From: Mongoliitalea daihaiensis
Lineage (GTDB): Bacteria > Bacteroidota > Bacteroidia > Cytophagales > Cyclobacteriaceae
DNA length: 64,000 nucleotides
Reading direction: 5' to 3'
Assembly (NCBI RefSeq): GCF_021596945.1
Contig: NZ_CP063779.1
Location: 4,748,001 to 4,812,000, forward strand
Below are positions 28,495-38,561 of this stretch, piece by piece; the first letter of the stretch is position 1, and every line of letters begins with the position of its first letter. The translations under genes were made by a program, and so were the position numbers. The notes below the pieces were generated by a model, which did no database searches, was not told the DNA's origin, and worked only from the letters and a program-made list of their open reading frames with translations.

Positions 28495-29592
28495 TTAATC
28501 TTTGGTCTGCTCCATACTCGGAAGTCTTACAATAACCTTAGTCCCCACTTGCGCTTCAGAGACAAGCTTGATCTCTCCTCCCATCTGTGTCACAGACTCC
28601 TTGACCATATAAAGCCCTAATCCAGAACCCGCATTTTTTTTGGAAGCCCGTTGAAATAAATTAAAAATCCCCGGCTGTAAGTCTCTCTCTATGCCGCTTC
28701 CGTTATCTTCAACCGAAATAATTGCGCATTCATCAATGACTTGAATTTCTATTTTTATCCATGGATTATCTTTCAACTCTTTGTGAAAGTTATAGGCATT
28801 GGAAAAAAGATTATTCAAAATAACACGAACCTTAGCGTCATCAGAGAAAAATTCTCTCTGTTGCTCAATAACACTCAAAATATTAAATCCGGTCAAATCC
28901 CACTTTTCACGATAAGCACTGACTTGTTGCTCTACTATTGTTTTAAAATCAATGTTTGTTATTTGATTTTCCATTTTTGTAGAGCGATAAAAATCAAGCA
29001 TTTTGTAAATAAAATCATCAAGCTTGGTGGTTGCTGAATCAATCATCTCAAAATATTCTAAGATAATAGGCTCATCAACCTCCATTTGCGCAAGTTTAGA
29101 TACTCCTGAAATGCTCATCAAAGGACCTCTCAATTCATGAGATAAAGAATATACAAACTGATTCATTTCTATTTGTATTTTTTCTAACCTCTCAGTTTTC
29201 TCCTTTAATTCTTGGCGGGTTCTATAAATTTCGGCTGCATTGACGATGGCATTTTTAATTTGATCCAAATTCCAAGGCTTATCTATAAACCTGTAAACCT
29301 CCCCTTTATTTATAGCATCAATGACCGAAACAATATCTGAATAGCCCGTCAATAAAATGCGAATGGGATCAGGATTAATTTTTGTTAGTTGCTCAAAAAA
29401 TTCTACTCCGGTAAGTCCTGGCATCCGCTGATCTGCTACCACAACTTGGAATTCCTGCGAAGTCACAAGTTCTAGACCCTCAGCTGCATCTAGCGCTGTA
29501 GTGATATCAAAGAACTTCCTTAAACTTGCTCGAAAAGAGGTTAAATTATTAGCCTCATCATCTATATATAAAACTCTAATTGTTTCCGTCAT
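28495..29592 (-). CDS. Response regulator-histidine kinase hybrid
   Basis: The 365 residues combine an N-terminal receiver (DDE at 11-13, phospho-acceptor Asp54 in VADQRMPG, Lys in DKPW), a coiled-coil link, a HisKA helix with His152 in SLSHELRGP, and a HATPase domain (NLFSNAYNFH, DNGSGIE, GSGLGLYMV). It has no membrane segment. It is the last gene of the 34.7-28.5 kb operon and overlaps the 7TM kinase by 17 bp. The receiver closely resembles that of the divergent single-domain regulator at 34844 (both DQRMP, GVEF, DPIRILLTGY), which suggests a phosphorelay within the cluster. Confidence 0.92.
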   Translation of the reverse strand: MTETIRVLYIDDEANNLTSFRASLRKFFDITTALDAAEGLELVTSQEFQVVVADQRMPGLTGVEFFEQLTKINPDPIRILLTGYSDIVSVIDAINKGEVYRFIDKPWNLDQIKNAIVNAAEIYRTRQELKEKTERLEKIQIEMNQFVYSLSHELRGPLMSISGVSKLAQMEVDEPIILEYFEMIDSATTKLDDFIYKMLDFYRSTKMENQITNIDFKTIVEQQVSAYREKWDLTGFNILSVIEQQREFFSDDAKVRVILNNLFSNAYNFHKELKDNPWIKIEIQVIDECAIISVEDNGSGIERDLQPGIFNLFQRASKKNAGSGLGLYMVKESVTQMGGEIKLVSEAQVGTKVIVRLPSMEQTKD

Positions 29593-31711
29593 GTGCTAGG
29601 GTATTTTGAAGGATTGGAAGCCTTATTTTGAATATTGTCCCCTGGGTAAGGACAGAATTTACTTCCAAAAACCCCTTATGATTCTCGATAATGGTGTAAA
29701 CAATTGATAAACCTAAACCCGTACCTTTTCCTACTCCTTTGGTAGTAAAAAAAGGTTCGAAAATACGCTGTTTGATTGATTCTGGAATACCAGGACCATT
29801 ATCTTCTATTTCAATTTCTACAAAGTTATTTAGATTTTTGGTTCTGATGGTAATTTTTGGAGACTCTTTTTGTTGTTCATTCTCCAACAACGCCTGAATA
29901 GCATTGGTCAGAATATTCATAAATACCTGATTGATCTTACCTGCAAGGCATTCCACCAAAGGTATGGTATCATAGGATTTTATAACGCTGATTTTACCAT
30001 TCATACTACTGCTGAGCAAAATCAATGTACTGTCTAGCCCATCATGCAAATTGACTTTTTTAACATCTTGCTCATCTACCCGAGAAAATAGCTTTAATCC
30101 TTTTACAATTTCAACCGTACGTTTGGCACCATCTTCCATCCCATGCAACAACTGATCAATTTCTTCTACTAAATAATCAAGTTCCAATTCTTCCTCTAGG
30201 GATTTCAACTCTTTCAATGTAGCTTGATTAAACTCATGTAGACCCTTTTCTTTATAGGCCCTCAAGATTTCTAAAATATCGCCTATATCCCTTTTAAGAG
30301 GAGAGACATTGGAACTCACAAAGTTGATTGGATTATTAATTTCATGGGCAATGCCTGCCGTCAACTGACCTAATGAAGCCATTTTCTCCTGCTCTACCAA
30401 CTGGGTTTGTGTACTCTGAAGGTTATGCAAAGTATCTTCCAGCTCAATGGTACGCTGCTTTACCTTTTCCTCCAAAAATTCATTCTGTCTTGTGATAAGC
30501 GTCTCATTTCTTTTCATAAAGGCAAGTTTTTCTTGCTGTTCAGACTCTTTCTCTTTTTTAAGAATATTGATTTTATCTGCTAAGGCAAATGAAATCAAGA
30601 CAACCTCCAAGCCCGAACCAAATGGCATGATGTAGGCAGAAAACTTTGTAAATGGAATAATTCCCATTTCTGAGAAGACAAAAATAAATATACCAACCAT
30701 GAATACTGACCAAGCTATCAGATACAAGCGTGCAGGACCATAGCCTTTTTTCAAGATTCTAAAAGCAACTAAAAACACATACATAACCACTATTGACTGT
30801 GTCACCAGTAACACTTGATAACTTAAGGTAATGGATATGAAAAATGCATTAGCCAAAATAAACGCATATACAAAATAGATAAAGTAAAACCCTTTATTCA
30901 ACGTAGGAACAAAATGTCGAGCATTCAAGAACACTTTTAAAAACCAGATCCCTACAATGCTGACAAGGGATGAGAAAATCACAATGGATCGTTGATTCAT
31001 CCAAACCCAATTAGGCCATAGCAGTTCCTGTGTATATCCCAAAATCGACGATTGGGCAAACCAAACAGCTAAAAGATGCAGGACATAAACCAAATAAGTG
31101 ATATCCCTGACCGAAGAATAGAGGAAGACATTGTAAAAAAATAGACCGACAATAACCCCCGTAAATATCCCGAATAAAACATTTTCAAAGTTCAACCGCT
31201 GATAGACCCCTAAAGTACTTGCGATGAAGGCTGATACTATCTTTTTGTCACTGCTCTGTACGCGTAGATAAATATATGCAACTGCTTCATCTGCAGGAGG
31301 CCGCAAAGAAAAAATCAGTTTATTGGATGGCAAAATCCTTGTAGAAAAATCAATAATTCTACCAGTCAATTGATTATCCACTACTTGATCATTCACTACT
31401 AGAAAATAATCTACCACATCCAACGAACTATTATTCAAAACCAAAAATTTATTTTCTGTGGTACTCCGCAAGTTTTCTACTTTAAATCGGAGCCAAACCG
31501 CAGCATTGCTAATTCCAAAGTTGGGATTTTCGGATTCAATTCGTTCAAATCCTTCCACTCGAATGACATCTTCAATGGTCAGACTTCTTTCTTTATCTAT
31601 TAGATACTCATATTTTTTTACATTTTGCAAAGTCTCTCCAGCTTCCCATTGAAAGACCGGAGTCCCGAACATGCTCATCAGGATAAAAATAAAACCTATT
31701 ATCATTTCCAA
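29576..31711 (-). CDS. 7TM-DISM sensor histidine kinase
   Basis: The 711 residues begin with a signal-like helix and an extracellular 7TMR-DISMED2 domain (about 25-165), a beta-sandwich thought to bind carbohydrates or other small ligands. Seven membrane helices follow (about 177-382), then a coiled coil (385-440), a HisKA helix with His456 in GIAHEINNP, and a HATPase domain ([25 protein letters not shown]). It is a full receptor with an outside sensor. It overlaps the acyltransferase-like gene by 10 bp upstream and the receiver-kinase by 17 bp downstream. Confidence 0.93.
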
Positions 31712-32412
31712 TGCGGGTTAGCTATCCTTAAATCAAATTCAATTTCAACATCTCCTTTAGGTGTCTTTTCTAAAGTAATGCAATGTAAAGATTCCCTCAG
31801 CCTAAAAATAAAATCCCTTTCCGTTTTTTCAGCCTTGGACAGAAGGGATGGATCTTTTAAAACAATGGCAGTAGCTACCAGATCGAGTTTCGGATAAAAA
31901 AAAGCTCCTTGGTTGCCTATAGTGGTTTCTATTTCAAATCCTTTTTGAAGAGAAGGTGGCAGAGTGTATTCAGAAACTAAGGCAAGTAAAGAATGTAATC
32001 CTAATTGGGTAGCAATAGCAATCCCAGTACGAATAAGATACACTGCTCCAATTGAATAGCCCGAAATACTCTTAGAATTCCAAAGACCGGCTACTTCAGC
32101 CGTTCCGGTAAATGCATATGATCTCACCAAATCAAACACCTGCTCATCCACCTGTGATATTGCTGTTTCCATAGGCAAAGGATAATCATGATGAGCAATA
32201 TGCAAGCGTAGACCTGAAACAATTTCTCCAGTTTCTTGCAATTCAACAACCACTACATACACATATGGGTTGTACATCCAGTCGTCTTTAGCAGATGTCA
32301 CTTTTGTTACACCGTATTGTCGTAAAACATGGAGGTGGCCCTCAGCAAATTCAATGCATGCCGCAGGTTCATCAATCGCTCGAAAAGCCCTAAACCTAAA
32401 CATGCTTAGCAA
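31702..32412 (-). CDS. GNAT-fold acyltransferase-like protein related to N-acyl amino acid / autoinducer synthases
   Basis: The 236-residue soluble protein has features of the GNAT superfamily branch that includes FeeM-type N-acyl amino acid synthases and acyl-homoserine lactone synthases: an N-terminal helix, a strand pair with YVYVVVVELQETGEIVSGLRLHI, the acidic segment PMETAISQV, and TAEVAGLWN, which sits where synthases carry their conserved Glu-x-x-Arg/Gly-Leu element. The assignment is by pattern, not by close likeness, so the acyl donor and acceptor are unknown. It overlaps the E1-nitroreductase fusion by 17 bp and the 7TM kinase by 10 bp, so it is almost certainly part of the same system. 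Confidence 0.55.
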   Translation of the reverse strand: MLSMFRFRAFRAIDEPAACIEFAEGHLHVLRQYGVTKVTSAKDDWMYNPYVYVVVVELQETGEIVSGLRLHIAHHDYPLPMETAISQVDEQVFDLVRSYAFTGTAEVAGLWNSKSISGYSIGAVYLIRTGIAIATQLGLHSLLALVSEYTLPPSLQKGFEIETTIGNQGAFFYPKLDLVATAIVLKDPSLLSKAEKTERDFIFRLRESLHCITLEKTPKGDVEIEFDLRIANPHWK

Positions 32413-34669
32413 TTCTAAGGGTTTCTTTGACAGGTCTTCGGTAAGATTTCACTACATCACCATTCGTGATATTTAATCTAAACATAAATAATGCCTCTCC
32501 GTCTTTCAATTCCAATAGCTCTTTGAAACTTTTATAACTGGATTCAATCAGACTGCCCTCAAATTCAGAAAAATCTGACTGTCCACCTTTGAAATATCTA
32601 TGGAACATAAATAAAGAAGCAGTAACTGGTTGAAAACTGACCCCCAGCTTGTTTGCAATTACCCACAGTCGCTGAATAATTGCACCACCAGACAAATAGG
32701 TCTTGGGGTTGAAATCTTTTGCAGTCAATACCATAATAGTTGAGGCTGACTTAAAAGTATCATCGGAAATTTTAGTAAAACCTTGTCCTAATTTGAATTT
32801 TCTTATCACGTCCATAGCCTGCTTATTACTGATTATTTTCAACAAAGCCCTTTCAGCTGCGCCGAAATCAAAAGTAGCTATATCTATCCCATCTTTGGTC
32901 GCGAGAGCCTCCTCGGGTGTCCATCGAATCTCTTCAACAAAATCTTTATATCCTTGCTTATTAAGCATGCGAACCCAATCCATACAGCCATTAATTTCTG
33001 CAAGTGCATCAATACTTGTTGAATGATCAAATACTTTTAATTGAAATTCTGTACCAGACACTACCGCTTTTATTTGATCAAGTTGTAACTCTGTAAGTGG
33101 TACTCTTGAGTGGTTGAGACGATCCGTAATTCTTTGAGGTACAAAAGAGTATAAAGAATCTTTCGACAATTGGATACTAGGATCCCCTTTCGATATGAAA
33201 TAGATAGAAGCAATTTCTTTCGCTCCAAACTCTTCTACATGTTCACAAATTTCAATCTTTATGCCATGATGGGCAGACCAAATCCGAATATTTTCAAGAG
33301 CTGCTCCAAAAGCCATCAAAGAACCGGTTCCTTTGAAGTCAAGCAAGGATTCACTTCTCACCTGGTCATGCAATAAATGAAGCACACCGCGTTCGTCAAA
33401 AAACCAAGACCATGGCTGAATATTCCCTCCTGAAGGTGCCAGATTAGCAAATTCAACCATTTCTTCCAACTCCTGATTTGATAAGCGATAGGAGGAGCTG
33501 AGATGATTAGTAAGTTTAATGGTACTTTCGACTTGCTGATTGATGCTTTTTTTAGTTTGATGCTTTGCGTCAGAGGTATCTCCAAGGCCAAGTAGCTCAT
33601 CAAAATCTACATAATATCTACCGGAAGCTAATGGTTGTCCCAACAGCAACTTTCTACTAGCATGTGCTCCCAAAGCTCCTCCCAGAAAAACGGAAGTTGC
33701 CAACTGTGGCCATGAAGTAATACTCTGATTTACTTCGAGTAAAGATGCCTTCATCCGGGTAGAAAGCGTTTCCAAACCTGTAATCTTAAGTACTACTGGG
33801 ATTTTTTCTTTCATCGGAAGATTTTTCAAACTCCTAGAATCTAATCCTTCCACCATTCCATGAAAGATTTCCCGAGTAGGATCGCAATCAAAGCGCTCAA
33901 CATCCAACATACCTCGATCGGATGTATCCATTAATACTGGAATACGATAATTGCGGGCACTTTCTCTCATCATCAACTTCATATCCAAACTATCGCATTC
34001 ATCAATCAAAAGATCCAAGGCTCCTCCTTTAAGTAAAAAATCATCCATATTTTTTTCCGTAAGTCCCTCTTCGTAAACAGTAACTTTAAGGTATGGGTCG
34101 ATTTCTGCAATTTCTCTTTTAACTATACAGGTTTTCTTTTCACCTAAATAATGTACCCCTGAACGAAGCCTATTCAAGTTACTCAACTCCAAACTATCAA
34201 AATCAGCGATCCTCAACTCTCCAAAACTACGTTCCAAAGCTAATGCAATAGCAACACTCTGACCTACGGACAGCCCAACTACACCAATTTTCTTTTGAGA
34301 GAGCTCAGCTTGCTCTTCTGCTGTAATTTTATATTTGTTACGAACGGTCCTAACTTCAGCAAAATCCTCTTCGGGTAATATGTGAACCAATATATTTCTC
34401 CAAGGATAATAAACCCAACTACCGTAAAAATCCCCACCCCTTTCAGTCAAGAACTCCCTCGCTAATTCATCCATTTCCAAGGGTTTAATTTGTTTGGTGG
34501 GATTTTTAAGCTTTATTAAGTCTTTGATTTGGGATAAAATAGGATCATGAATCCGTACCAATGAATTGTTTTTTAACAGTGAAAAATATGTTAAATCATC
34601 TTTTTCCTGTAATTTTAGAACTATATGGCACGTATTTTCTATTTTAGTTGAATATTCCTTTACTAGCAT
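32396..34669 (-). CDS. ThiF/E1-like and nitroreductase fusion protein (Rv1355c-like)
   Basis: The 757-residue protein joins two enzymes. The N-terminal half is an E1/MoeB/ThiF-like adenylation domain: glycine-rich loop GVVGLSVGQ (about 129-137), acidic ADFD (155-158) and SNLNR (163-167). I see no CxxC zinc pairs and no obvious E1 catalytic cysteine there. The C-terminal half, from about 395, is nitroreductase-like with the FMN-site motif APSGGNIQPW (411-420). Mycobacterial Rv1355c has the same arrangement; its role is unknown to me. The frame is open to an ATG at 34738, but a 28-bp palindrome lies between the two, so the start at 34669 is preferred. It is the first gene of the operon. Confidence 0.8.
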   Translation of the reverse strand: MLVKEYSTKIENTCHIVLKLQEKDDLTYFSLLKNNSLVRIHDPILSQIKDLIKLKNPTKQIKPLEMDELAREFLTERGGDFYGSWVYYPWRNILVHILPEEDFAEVRTVRNKYKITAEEQAELSQKKIGVVGLSVGQSVAIALALERSFGELRIADFDSLELSNLNRLRSGVHYLGEKKTCIVKREIAEIDPYLKVTVYEEGLTEKNMDDFLLKGGALDLLIDECDSLDMKLMMRESARNYRIPVLMDTSDRGMLDVERFDCDPTREIFHGMVEGLDSRSLKNLPMKEKIPVVLKITGLETLSTRMKASLLEVNQSITSWPQLATSVFLGGALGAHASRKLLLGQPLASGRYYVDFDELLGLGDTSDAKHQTKKSINQQVESTIKLTNHLSSSYRLSNQELEEMVEFANLAPSGGNIQPWSWFFDERGVLHLLHDQVRSESLLDFKGTGSLMAFGAALENIRIWSAHHGIKIEICEHVEEFGAKEIASIYFISKGDPSIQLSKDSLYSFVPQRITDRLNHSRVPLTELQLDQIKAVVSGTEFQLKVFDHSTSIDALAEINGCMDWVRMLNKQGYKDFVEEIRWTPEEALATKDGIDIATFDFGAAERALLKIISNKQAMDVIRKFKLGQGFTKISDDTFKSASTIMVLTAKDFNPKTYLSGGAIIQRLWVIANKLGVSFQPVTASLFMFHRYFKGGQSDFSEFEGSLIESSYKSFKELLELKDGEALFMFRLNITNGDVVKSYRRPVKETLRIAKHV

Positions 34670-34699
34670 GGTATAATTTTCGATGGGTGAGGCGAATAG

Positions 34700-34727
34700 T
34701 AAATTTACATGAAGTGATGTAAATTTA
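34700..34727. promoter_or_regulatory. Near-perfect palindrome before the E1-nitroreductase operon
   Basis: TAAATTTACAT (34700-34710) and ATGTAAATTTA (34717-34727) are perfect inverted arms around GAAGTG. They lie 30-60 bp before the ATG at 34669. Length and spacing suit a dimeric repressor or activator, and the site would put the operon under its own regulator. Confidence 0.65.
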
Positions 34728-34792
34728 TTTGTTAACAATTAAAATAATTTATCGGTTTTACTAAAATGAATTAAAATACAGTTTTAACTAGC

Positions 34793-34810
34793 TGATTTTG
34801 ATTAAAATCA
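34793..34810. promoter_or_regulatory. Inverted repeat TGATTTT-N4-AAAATCA
   Basis: A perfect 7-bp inverted repeat with a 4-bp spacer in the divergent promoter region, 34-51 bp before the single-domain receiver gene. A regulator site is likely, but AT-rich palindromes arise easily by chance. Confidence 0.4.
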
Positions 34811-34814
34811 CAAA

Positions 34815-34843
34815 AAAGATTTCGTTAACTGTTAAAAATCTTT
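34815..34843 (+). promoter_or_regulatory. Hairpin adjoining the start of the receiver gene
   Basis: AAAGATTT (34815-34822) pairs with AAATCTTT (34836-34843), the last base before the ATG at 34844, around a 13-base loop that contains GTTAAC. As RNA it could cover the ribosome-binding region of the receiver gene. Confidence 0.4.
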
Positions 34844-35311
34844 ATGACTGCTCCTGAAAAAATATCGATTCTTTATGTAGATGATGAGATGCACAATCTT
34901 CAGGCTTTCAAGGCTACATTTAGAAGGGATTTTAAAATCCATTTGGCTAACTCCGCTGATGAAGGAAGGTCTGTTTTGAAGAACGAATCCATAGATATCA
35001 TCATCACCGATCAACGCATGCCCAATGAAGTAGGGGTTGAATTTTTAGCTTCCGTCATCCCTTCACATCCCGACCCCATTAGGATTTTACTCACAGGATA
35101 TACAGATATCCAAGCTGTAATCGATGCTATCAACAAAGGACAAGTCTACCATTACCTAACCAAACCTTGGGATGAAGATTATATGAGAACTGTCATCAAA
35201 AATGCATTTGAGGTATATTCCCTTCGAAAAGAAAATAAAAAACTCACCGAAGATTTGCTTCGTGCCAATGAGCAGTTAGAATTTTTACTGCGCCAAAACC
35301 TATTATCTTAA
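34844..35311 (+). CDS. Single-domain response regulator
   Basis: The 155 residues are a receiver (DDE at 13-15, Asp56 in TDQRMPN, Lys in TKPWDE) plus a short C-terminal coiled coil (about 125-150); there is no DNA-binding or enzymatic output domain. It is transcribed away from the E1-nitroreductase operon, whose hybrid kinase carries a very similar receiver, so it may be a shuttle or sink in the same relay. It converges on alanine dehydrogenase with a 4-bp overlap. Confidence 0.9.
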   Translation: MTAPEKISILYVDDEMHNLQAFKATFRRDFKIHLANSADEGRSVLKNESIDIIITDQRMPNEVGVEFLASVIPSHPDPIRILLTGYTDIQAVIDAINKGQVYHYLTKPWDEDYMRTVIKNAFEVYSLRKENKKLTEDLLRANEQLEFLLRQNLLS

Positions 35312-36950: not shown

Positions 36951-38510
36951 TTAATTTATCTTAGGTTTTAAATGGGCCAAAGGAATAATCATCTCCTCTA
37001 AGGATACCCCCCCATGCTGGAAGGTATCTTTATAAAAGTTGACGTAGTAATTGTAATTATTTGGATATGCAAAGAAATAATCTTCTACTGCAAAAACATA
37101 GCTTGTGGACACATTAAAACGTGGAAGTTTGGCATCTTCTGGCTTGTTGATCTCAAATACCTTACCGCTTTCAAAATTTAAATTTTTCCCCTGCTTATAC
37201 CTTAAATTCGTAGTAATAGTTTTATCCCCGATGATTTTGTAGGGCTTGTTGACTCTTTTTGTGCCATGATCGGTTGTTACAATGACTTCTGCTTTAGCAT
37301 CGTTGATCTTTTTAAACATTTCGAATAAGGTTGAATGCTCAAACCAACTTCTCGTGAGCGAACGGTAAGCCGATTCATTAGGGGCCAACTCGCGGATCAT
37401 TTTCATATCCGTGCGTGCGTGAGACATCATATCCACAAAGTTATAGACCAATACATTCAAATCATTATGTAAAAAATTATTAAAGTGCTCTAAGGCATTT
37501 TTCCCTTGGTAGGCTTGCAGAATCTTGGTGTAGCTAAATCTAATATTAAGCCTATTCTTGTGGAGATTTTCGGCCAAAAATTCCTCTTCATTATTGTTTT
37601 TCCCTTCATCGGTATCCTCTCCTTCCCACAGATCCGGATGGAATCGAGCCATCTCAGATGGCATCATACCACTGAACAAAGAATTTCTTGCATAGGCCGT
37701 AGTCGTAGGAAGAATACTGAAATAAGAAGTCTCTTCTTTAATCGTGAAATACTCCGTAATCAAGGGTTTTAGTATTTCCCATTGATCCAATCGAAGATTG
37801 TCAATTACAATGAAAAATAAAGGTTTACCTTCTTGCAAGTGAGGAAACACTTTTTCTTTCATAACTCTGGGACTAAGCAAAGGTTTATCGATTTTCGGAT
37901 CATTCAACCAGTCCAAATAATTGGTTTTGATAAACTTAGCAAAGGAACCATTGGCCTCTATCTTTTGAGTATCCAGTACATCCTGCATACTTTTATTTTC
38001 AGTTTCATCAATCTCCAATTCCCAATAAGTCAGTCTCTTATAAACATCCATCCATTCTTTATGGGTGGAGGCATCATTGCAAGCCATGCTAATATTCATG
38101 AAATCCTGTCGGTAGGATAGATTGGTTTTCTCCGTAATCAGCTGTTTGTTTTGAAGAATTTTCTTGACCGAAAGAAGGATTTGATTTGGATTAATAGGTT
38201 TGATAAGGTAGTCTGCGATCTTTCCTCCGATCGCATCATCCATGATATGCTCTTCCTCACTTTTGGTAATCATTACTACCGGTATATGAGGTTTGATCAT
38301 TTTGATGTGCTGCAATGTTTCCAAGCCGGTCATACCTGGCATCATTTCATCCAAAAATATTACATCAAATGATTGCAACTCTACTTCATCGATCGCATCT
38401 ACACCCGAATTAACTGTCACAATTTCATAACCCCTTTGTTGAAGAAACAAAATATGAGGTTTCAGGAGATCTATTTCGTCATCTGCCCAAAGGATTTTAA
38501 ATTTTTGCAT
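36951..38510 (-). CDS. porX: PorX-like response regulator with PglZ/alkaline-phosphatase domain
   Basis: PorX is the two-component regulator of the type IX secretion system in Bacteroidota; its C-terminal domain is a phosphodiesterase of the PglZ/alkaline phosphatase superfamily. The 519 residues have a receiver (Asp54 in FLDEMMPG, Lys in IKPI), a helical linker, and a PglZ domain with the nucleophile region TTTAYARNSLFSGMMP and metal ligands in IDNLR, TTDHGT and QHGGVS. The ATG at 38510 gives the usual PorX length. The sensor PorY and the sigma factor SigP are not in the window. Confidence 0.93.
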   Translation of the reverse strand: MQKFKILWADDEIDLLKPHILFLQQRGYEIVTVNSGVDAIDEVELQSFDVIFLDEMMPGMTGLETLQHIKMIKPHIPVVMITKSEEEHIMDDAIGGKIADYLIKPINPNQILLSVKKILQNKQLITEKTNLSYRQDFMNISMACNDASTHKEWMDVYKRLTYWELEIDETENKSMQDVLDTQKIEANGSFAKFIKTNYLDWLNDPKIDKPLLSPRVMKEKVFPHLQEGKPLFFIVIDNLRLDQWEILKPLITEYFTIKEETSYFSILPTTTAYARNSLFSGMMPSEMARFHPDLWEGEDTDEGKNNNEEEFLAENLHKNRLNIRFSYTKILQAYQGKNALEHFNNFLHNDLNVLVYNFVDMMSHARTDMKMIRELAPNESAYRSLTRSWFEHSTLFEMFKKINDAKAEVIVTTDHGTKRVNKPYKIIGDKTITTNLRYKQGKNLNFESGKVFEINKPEDAKLPRFNVSTSYVFAVEDYFFAYPNNYNYYVNFYKDTFQHGGVSLEEMIIPLAHLKPKIN

Positions 38511-38561
38511 AAAATTCGGTTTAATTCTTTTAAAATTATAATTACTTTTGGAATCAATCAA

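Follow-up and report, generated by a model that had tools for sequence, protein, structure and literature searches.

We analysed a 64,000-nucleotide stretch of the Mongoliitalea daihaiensis genome (contig NZ_CP063779.1, positions 4,748,001 to 4,812,000; referred to below, at its full length, as the window), in which a five-gene cassette at window positions 28,495 to 35,311 places genes related to oxazolone-lipid biosynthesis beside a 7TM-DISM sensor histidine kinase and two receiver proteins. An earlier note on this DNA had read the cassette as a synthase-receptor locus, the first two genes making a small molecule that the last two sense. Comparison with related loci revealed that, at one Cyclobacteriaceae site, the acyltransferase and the sensor half of the kinase form three matched clusters at one of two threshold pairs tried, which is a new finding. 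The features of the locus are as follows.

32396..34738, minus strand: TrzS/OxzB-like fusion of an N-terminal ThiF-like cyclase and a C-terminal flavin-dependent oxidase (NF005901; Pfam ThiF and Nitroreductase)
31702..32412, minus strand: TrzA/OxzA-like N-acyltransferase with a predicted FeeM/AHL-synthase fold (AlphaFold2 model, structure comparison)
29576..31711, minus strand: 7TM-DISM sensor histidine kinase with DISMED2, 7TM, HisKA and HATPase domains (Pfam, sensor-half model)
28495..29592, minus strand: receiver-histidine kinase with receiver, HisKA and HATPase domains (Pfam)
34844..35311, plus strand: divergent single-domain receiver (Pfam Response_reg)
30572..32412, minus strand: type-determining stretch, comprising the acyltransferase gene and the DISMED2/7TM coding part of the kinase gene (co-varying between relatives)
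34739..34843, no strand assigned: 105 bp between the longest divergent open reading frames (ORFs), presumed site of both promoters (sequence)

The type-determining stretch was delimited by per-segment identity and a DNA sliding window, both on relatives, and its end is that of the 7TM Pfam match. All five ORFs were confirmed at these coordinates and strands, and the longest ORFs overlap by the 17, 10 and 17 bp first reported. TTG starts underlie two of the three overlaps (those of the acyltransferase and the 7TM-DISM kinase). With the nearest in-frame ATG, the fusion and the acyltransferase overlap by 8 bp (32396-32403) and the acyltransferase and the 7TM-DISM kinase by 4 bp (31702-31705, ATGA); the 7TM-DISM kinase and the receiver-kinase overlap by 17 bp with an ATG start (29576-29592). 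Gene coupling is tight with either start choice. The probable ATG starts are 32403 for the acyltransferase, 31705 for the 7TM-DISM kinase and 34669 for the fusion, which has a TTG at its listed start.

The 780-aa fusion belongs to the NCBIfam NF005901 Rv1355c family (723.5 bits against a cut-off of 476, residues 35-776) and is the only match above cut-off in the genome, a single 4.82 Mb contig. Pfam ThiF and Nitroreductase were both matched, as expected of the ThiF/E1-nitroreductase fusion that the earlier note had described. The ThiF ATP-site motifs lie at GLSVG 155, ADFD 178 and DECD 246, and GLSVG, ADFD and ECD are also common to the Mycolicibacterium, Rhodococcus and M. dioxanotrophicus homologues (three actinobacterial proteins); the oxidase-domain profile matches Acg (2ymv, E 1.9e-20). 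The nearest named locus is that of Mongoliitalea lutea (L130), with 69% identity in the ThiF part, very near records possibly being excluded.

The acyltransferase has 236 aa and matched no Pfam family at E 0.1; Acetyltransf_1 was weakly matched in 10 of 53 homologues (best E 0.0017), and a profile of the protein, searched against PDB sequences, found two weak matches (E 0.19 and 0.44). Its AlphaFold2 model (pLDDT 93.1, pTM 0.91) shows an acyl-CoA/ACP-type fold, the very feature on which the signal-loop idea had been staked. Foldseek placed BjaI and FeeM in the top rows, and VIA-align ranked FeeM (Z 17.4, rmsd 2.7 over 176 residues), LasI (16.5) and BjaI (16.3) beside two near-equal GNATs, 1xeb (16.3) and ElaA (16.0), where rows differing by less than 1 in Z count as tied. 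The GNAT-like protein of FeeM/LuxI-type fold that had been guessed from sequence is thereby borne out by model and structure comparison. As a Pfam label, LuxI/FeeM (PF21926) was rejected: it had no match in the M. daihaiensis protein (E 0.1), FeeM was found in one of the 53 homologues (E 0.18), and LuxI was absent among the 18 families listed. We retain FeeM/LuxI for the modelled protein as a fold description only. A passage of PMC10404671 likewise reports FeeM and BjaI among the structures nearest to TyzA.

By homology, the first two genes are those of the oxazolone-lipid pathway known from other bacteria (TrzAS/TyzACB/OxzAB), and their product is probably a small fatty amino-acid molecule. 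PMC12856293 and PMC10404671 describe TrzAS, OxzAB and TyzACB as acyl-oxazolone biosynthesis, with TyzACB making tyrazolones. The cassette resembles these systems of Mycobacterium, Rhodococcus and Pseudoalteromonas in combining, by fusion or linkage, a ThiF cyclase with a flavin-dependent oxidase of the nitroreductase superfamily, and in the adjoining N-acyltransferase of FeeM/BjaI fold. Unlike them, the genes here are tied to a 7TM-DISM kinase and receivers, and 24 of the 49 loci compared below are without the oxidase domain. OxzAB (2021) was reportedly the first of these pathways. A TrzA homologue adjoins ThiF in 30 of 31 family loci; outside the family, a Rhodococcus gene beside an Rv1355c gene matches the acyltransferase at 1.3e-4 (residues 84-204), and no acyltransferase match was found among the ORFs kept at the four other plasmid loci. 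According to a passage of PMC12856293, trzAS of Mycobacterium tuberculosis lies beside cyclic di-GMP (c-di-GMP) genes. On Rhodococcus plasmid L211 (3696-7944), GGDEF, TrzA-like and Rv1355c genes stand side by side, as reported for the c-di-GMP neighbours of trzAS, and the other three annotated plasmid loci have no GGDEF gene nearby.

The domain assignments of the signalling genes held as well. The 7TM-DISM kinase matches 7TMR-DISMED2, 7TMR-DISM_7TM, HisKA and HATPase, all Pfam models above cut-off, the receiver-kinase has Pfam receiver, HisKA and HATPase domains, and the divergent gene is a single Response_reg. By position, the phospho-acceptor of the 7TM-DISM kinase is H456, the receiver-kinase carries D54 and K105 in its receiver and H152 in its HisKA domain, and the divergent receiver has D56 and K107. 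In the sensor-half model (pLDDT 92), DISMED2 resembles the RetS periplasmic domain, and glycosidase domains and a carbohydrate-binding module are also matched at E ~0.01. The cassette kinase thus shares with the 7TM-DISM receptors RetS and LadS a RetS-like DISMED2 periplasmic domain and a 7TM domain, in a different kinase context; we know of no synthase partner for RetS or LadS. The name NosR-type response regulator was rejected for the receiver, as NF053512 reached 161.7 bits against a cut-off of 400 and covered the receiver part only. The receiver-kinase is present in 26 of 31 family loci and the divergent receiver in 30 of 31; four of 30 family cassettes are without the receiver-kinase (L050, L057, L060, L061). 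A further gene of ~133 aa follows in 34 of 80 named loci (>100 bits with a profile built from such genes), and the one tested is a receiver.

To characterize the linkage of these genes, NF005901 searches that were blind to kinases were run with thresholds of 1e-60 for the family, 1e-60 for the order and 1e-50 for a phylum sample, and gave matches in 31 of 148 family genomes, 58 of 291 order genomes and 10 of 395 genomes of the phylum sample (sets overlap). All 94 distinct loci were examined, three of them via the same contigs in the named-locus set. A 7TM-DISM kinase adjoins ThiF in 82 of the 94, counting in a kinase that reads as two ORFs (L039) and another truncated at a contig end (L114); at two further loci the contig ends too early to judge (L069, L106). 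The kinase stands beside ThiF in 39 of 40 family loci, 38 of 49 in the rest of the order and all five in the rest of the class. Since the M. daihaiensis genome has five matches to the 7TMR-DISM_7TM domain, adjacency in 82 of 94 loci goes beyond chance, and ThiF homologues mostly occur with the kinase, the opposite of what the earlier note had named as fatal to its idea. In the best 80 named loci, an overlapping set biased to close relatives, the kinase is whole, split or cut in 74, absent in four (L159, L163, L186, L192) and beyond an early contig end in two (L155, L198). Gene content is stable while order varies: among the 127 loci that carry ThiF and TrzA together with an intact DISM kinase (out of 151 with ThiF, sets overlapping), 92 have the order divergent receiver, ThiF, TrzA, DISM kinase, receiver-kinase, and TrzA lies upstream of ThiF in 17.

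All 30 cassettes of the family sample sit between ald (alanine dehydrogenase) and ppa (inorganic pyrophosphatase), so linkage within the family could be inertia. In other families the cassette flanks differ, and synteny is not the whole reason for the kinase linkage. From the 117 ThiF-negative family genomes, 78 were searched and 20 fetched. Five of these 20 keep ald near ppa: two with a receiver only, one empty, and two that retain the receiver, the DISM kinase and the receiver-kinase at the site without ThiF or TrzA. Both receptor-only loci have sensors closest to the type found in the window (7TM identity 57% and 44%, the second below the 50% cluster threshold used below), and tblastn of both loci (E 0.01) found no synthase relic. 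In L245 and L246 the divergent receiver, which scores lower there (196, 211), is the one cassette gene left between ald and ppa; it can persist after the others are lost.

Across 29 cassettes at the ald/ppa site, TrzA identity and 7TM identity correlate at r = 0.95, a value reached in 0 of 2000 permutations, and the partial correlation is 0.94 given ald and ppa and 0.92 when the kinase half is also given. Between oxidase-bearing and oxidase-less loci TrzA identity falls to 0.39 and 7TM identity to 0.33; the kinase half stays at 0.71 between the groups versus 0.72-0.73 within them. We then assembled a larger Cyclobacteriaceae set of 49 loci (27 from the family sample and 22 named, near-identical ones dropped), which omits loci without a whole DISM, receiver, ald or ppa, among them L130, L138, L155 and L200. 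At thresholds of 55% for TrzA and 50% for 7TM, each protein forms three clusters (24, 14 and 11 loci) with identical membership and none mixed. The oxidase domain is absent in 24/24 loci of type 0 and present in 14/14 and 11/11 of the other two types; a search of 22 ThiF-only genomes (E 1e-5) gave no oxidase-domain match elsewhere in the genome. In six later-fetched loci and L200, the TrzA type, the 7TM type and the oxidase status all agreed (7/7). By parsimony, type changes 10 times on a FastTree ald+ppa tree, 6 times on the ThiF tree and twice on the TrzA and 7TM trees, against ~21 changes with shuffled type labels; the 10 changes may be an overcount because the trees carry no support values. 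This repeated joint change of maker and sensor suggests a private chemical signal and its receptor.

The oxidase domain fades in the cassettes of one genus (g134: L117, L118, L120, L122, L124-L128), where the profile score goes from 242 to none, and 746- and 633-aa ThiF proteins without an oxidase match retain the acyltransferase, kinase and receivers at their loci. Desaturation of the product may be dispensable in this genus.

Block differences are visible between close relatives. For G129 and Algoriphagus limi, identity is 99% (ald), 93% (ThiF and oxidase), 96% (kinase half) and 98% (receiver-kinase and ppa), versus 46% (TrzA), 22% (DISMED2) and 39% (7TM). Their DNA identity drops from ~0.9 to ~0.5 just past the trzA start and recovers near the end of the 7TM segment, ~1.75 kb on; a second Algoriphagus pair shows the same drop and recovery. 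As controls we took two further 7TM-DISM proteins encoded in these genomes, each compared over 105 genome pairs and neither matching the cassette-kinase profile; their mean 7TM identities are 0.65 and 0.66. Their 7TM identity correlates with TrzA at 0.14 and 0.24, and between pairs of differing versus same TrzA type it is 0.66 vs 0.66 and 0.64 vs 0.69, compared with 0.34 vs 0.62 for the cassette kinase. The 7TM fold is therefore not simply fast-evolving, since the control 7TM hardly falls with TrzA type. Over 123 loci the partial correlation of TrzA and 7TM given ThiF and HK is 0.57; for the Cyclobacteriaceae site the value is 0.87, and for 57 further loci of standard order it is 0.48. Among 285 pairs whose kinase halves share 80% identity or more (non-independent, with a few duplicates), TrzA and 7TM are both similar in 137, both different in 117 and in between in 27, and no pair combines a different TrzA with a similar 7TM.

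Taken together, the cassette probably encodes a synthase and receptor for a small molecule derived from an N-acyl amino acid, the product being sensed by the co-encoded 7TM-DISM kinase, as the matched variation of enzyme and sensor would imply. The synthase-receptor reading of the earlier note is thus supported by the kinase linkage, the fold and the matched types, these last not in every gene order; its synthase half is not new, being that of TrzAS/TyzACB/OxzAB. By homology, the FeeM/TrzA-like enzyme would acylate an amino acid, the ThiF domain would activate the carboxylate with ATP and close an oxazolone (azlactone) ring, and the flavin oxidase domain, where present, would desaturate the oxazolone. 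The membrane sensor half, through its 7TM and perhaps with DISMED2, would recognise the product, and the kinase would signal through the receiver-kinase and single-domain receiver(s) by phosphorelay. The acyltransferase, oxidase presence and sensor half fall into matched types, as synthase and receptor do in specificity-polymorphic quorum-sensing loci. The genes are linked across lineages in permuted order and with different flanks, as expected of a quorum-sensing synthase-receptor pair.

Several results weigh against this reading. At the other threshold pair tried (60%/55%) the TrzA and 7TM clusters differ (adjusted Rand index 0.73), and ten of the 94 ThiF loci are without a kinase (L062, L109, L119, L121, L123, L129, L334, L337, L340, L342). 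Four of the 285 close pairs have similar TrzA and different 7TM, that is, sensor-only differences. The pairs L033/L053 and L136/L182 differ in the ThiF part too, so the differing block can be larger. In the 17 TrzA-ThiF-DISM loci the TrzA-7TM partial correlation is 0.13 (133/1000 permutations), and it is ThiF, now adjoining the sensor gene, that follows 7TM (0.32), as plain physical linkage predicts. In the sister species M. lutea (L039 = L130, same contig) the DISM kinase is split into two ORFs (145 and 542 aa), through either gene disruption or a sequencing error, and the synthase genes are whole. No DNA-binding output is encoded within the cassette, and a passage of PMC12856293 reports tryptazolones to be more abundant in cells than in medium. 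Because the swapped-order loci are uncoupled and sensor-only differences exist, physical linkage explains part of the coupling; linkage alone accounts less easily for an oxidase domain that tracks type and for close pairs that deviate in one direction only.

That enrichment in cells, together with the tie of oxazolones to stress in PMC12856293, would fit a kinase that senses the product, or contacts the acyltransferase, solely for single-cell feedback or stress homeostasis, with no cell-cell signal. Matched TrzA and 7TM types fit product feedback or protein contact equally well. Feedback alone, however, would hardly account for types that changed repeatedly between close relatives, or for the retention of receptors in two genomes that have no synthase genes at this site, and we consider it unlikely. 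Alternatively, sensor and acyltransferase might change together through adjacency, with diversifying selection on an exposed sensor (e.g., a phage or toxin target) and trzA hitch-hiking. The loss of coupling where TrzA is not adjacent to the sensor gene and the sensor-only differences speak for such hitch-hiking, but the oxidase domain, which lies across trzA from the sensor gene, also tracks type in 49/49 loci, the 285 close pairs hold no clear TrzA difference without a 7TM difference, and in the 8 pairs listed from within a type the 7TM and the kinase half show similar conservation, which makes this account improbable. A conventional two-component system that responds to an unrelated external cue and switches on oxazolone production would suit the resemblance of the sensor model to RetS and, at E ~0.01, to glycosidase domains and a carbohydrate-binding module, but gives no reason for a sensor type that matches the enzyme type, and we regard it as very improbable.

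A synthase-receptor cassette of this kind has parallels among quorum-sensing systems. CqsA/CqsS and LqsA/LqsS likewise pair the synthase gene for a small molecule with a neighbouring membrane sensor kinase that acts in a phosphorelay, and differ from the cassette in their unrelated synthase chemistry and other sensor fold. In the agr and ComQXP pherotype loci, synthase and signal genes co-vary with the sensor half, and the kinase half and flanks are conserved; their signals are peptides, whereas the varying synthase of the cassette is an acyltransferase of a small-molecule pathway. By analogy, the cassette would resemble quorum-sensing pairs with pherotypes, and we do not assign it as a member of agr, ComQXP or CqsA/CqsS. 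Among the titles and abstract openings covered, in which subscription journals are mostly missing, no paper connects oxazolone genes to a histidine kinase, or an acyl signal to 7TMR-DISM, and the passages of PMC8776678 and PMC11925935 do not describe the locus.

Further ThiF loci show other arrangements. Sampling of other phyla was thin, with five plasmid loci and four contigs that carry non-Bacteroidota labels: Brevibacillus (L163, L186) and a Blastocatellia metagenome-assembled genome (MAG; L159) have close ThiF homologues without a kinase or recognised acyltransferase, and L207, a MAG labelled Azovibrio and perhaps misbinned, has a whole cassette with a close ThiF homologue. In L119, L123, L129, L334, L337, L340 and L342 a lone ThiF has a 249-281 aa gene directly upstream; three of these genes were tested and gave weak GNAT matches (E 0.009 to 0.06), and the pair is perhaps a second pathway without receptors. 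ThiF adjoins a fatty acid desaturase gene in L109 (6392-8666) and an enoyl-CoA hydratase gene in L062 (8198-10060), both without a kinase.

Scans of the M. daihaiensis region found no excess of promoter-like matches (25 versus 24.9 in shuffles) or of terminator-like matches over shuffles, and an Rfam scan gave no match; a repeat scan gave short imperfect pairs only, without a chance estimate. PorX, the response regulator of type IX secretion, is encoded at 36951-38561 (minus strand), three genes from the divergent receiver (827 bits against a cut-off of 300). An ORF of the PorX cluster is present in 30 of 31 family loci, and PorX is a possible candidate partner of the cassette.

PMC12856293 (2025) regards what oxazolones do physiologically as a major open question, and the signalling suggestion made there draws only on structural resemblance and c-di-GMP neighbours. 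We give about an even chance to a wider proposal, in which the cassette would serve cell-cell signalling across Bacteroidota: acyl-oxazolones (or undesaturated azlactone or N-acyl amino acid forms) would act as autoinducers specific to each type, which the DISM kinase would detect through its 7TM bundle, with pherotypes exchanged by recombination. If true, this would give oxazolone lipids a role, 7TM-DISM receptors a class of ligands and Bacteroidota an autoinducer system, all together. A receptor that changes type with the enzymes makes the role of oxazolones directly testable, each product against its own receptor, and if each product switches its own receptor and no other, Bacteroidota would have small-molecule signalling with exchangeable specificities.

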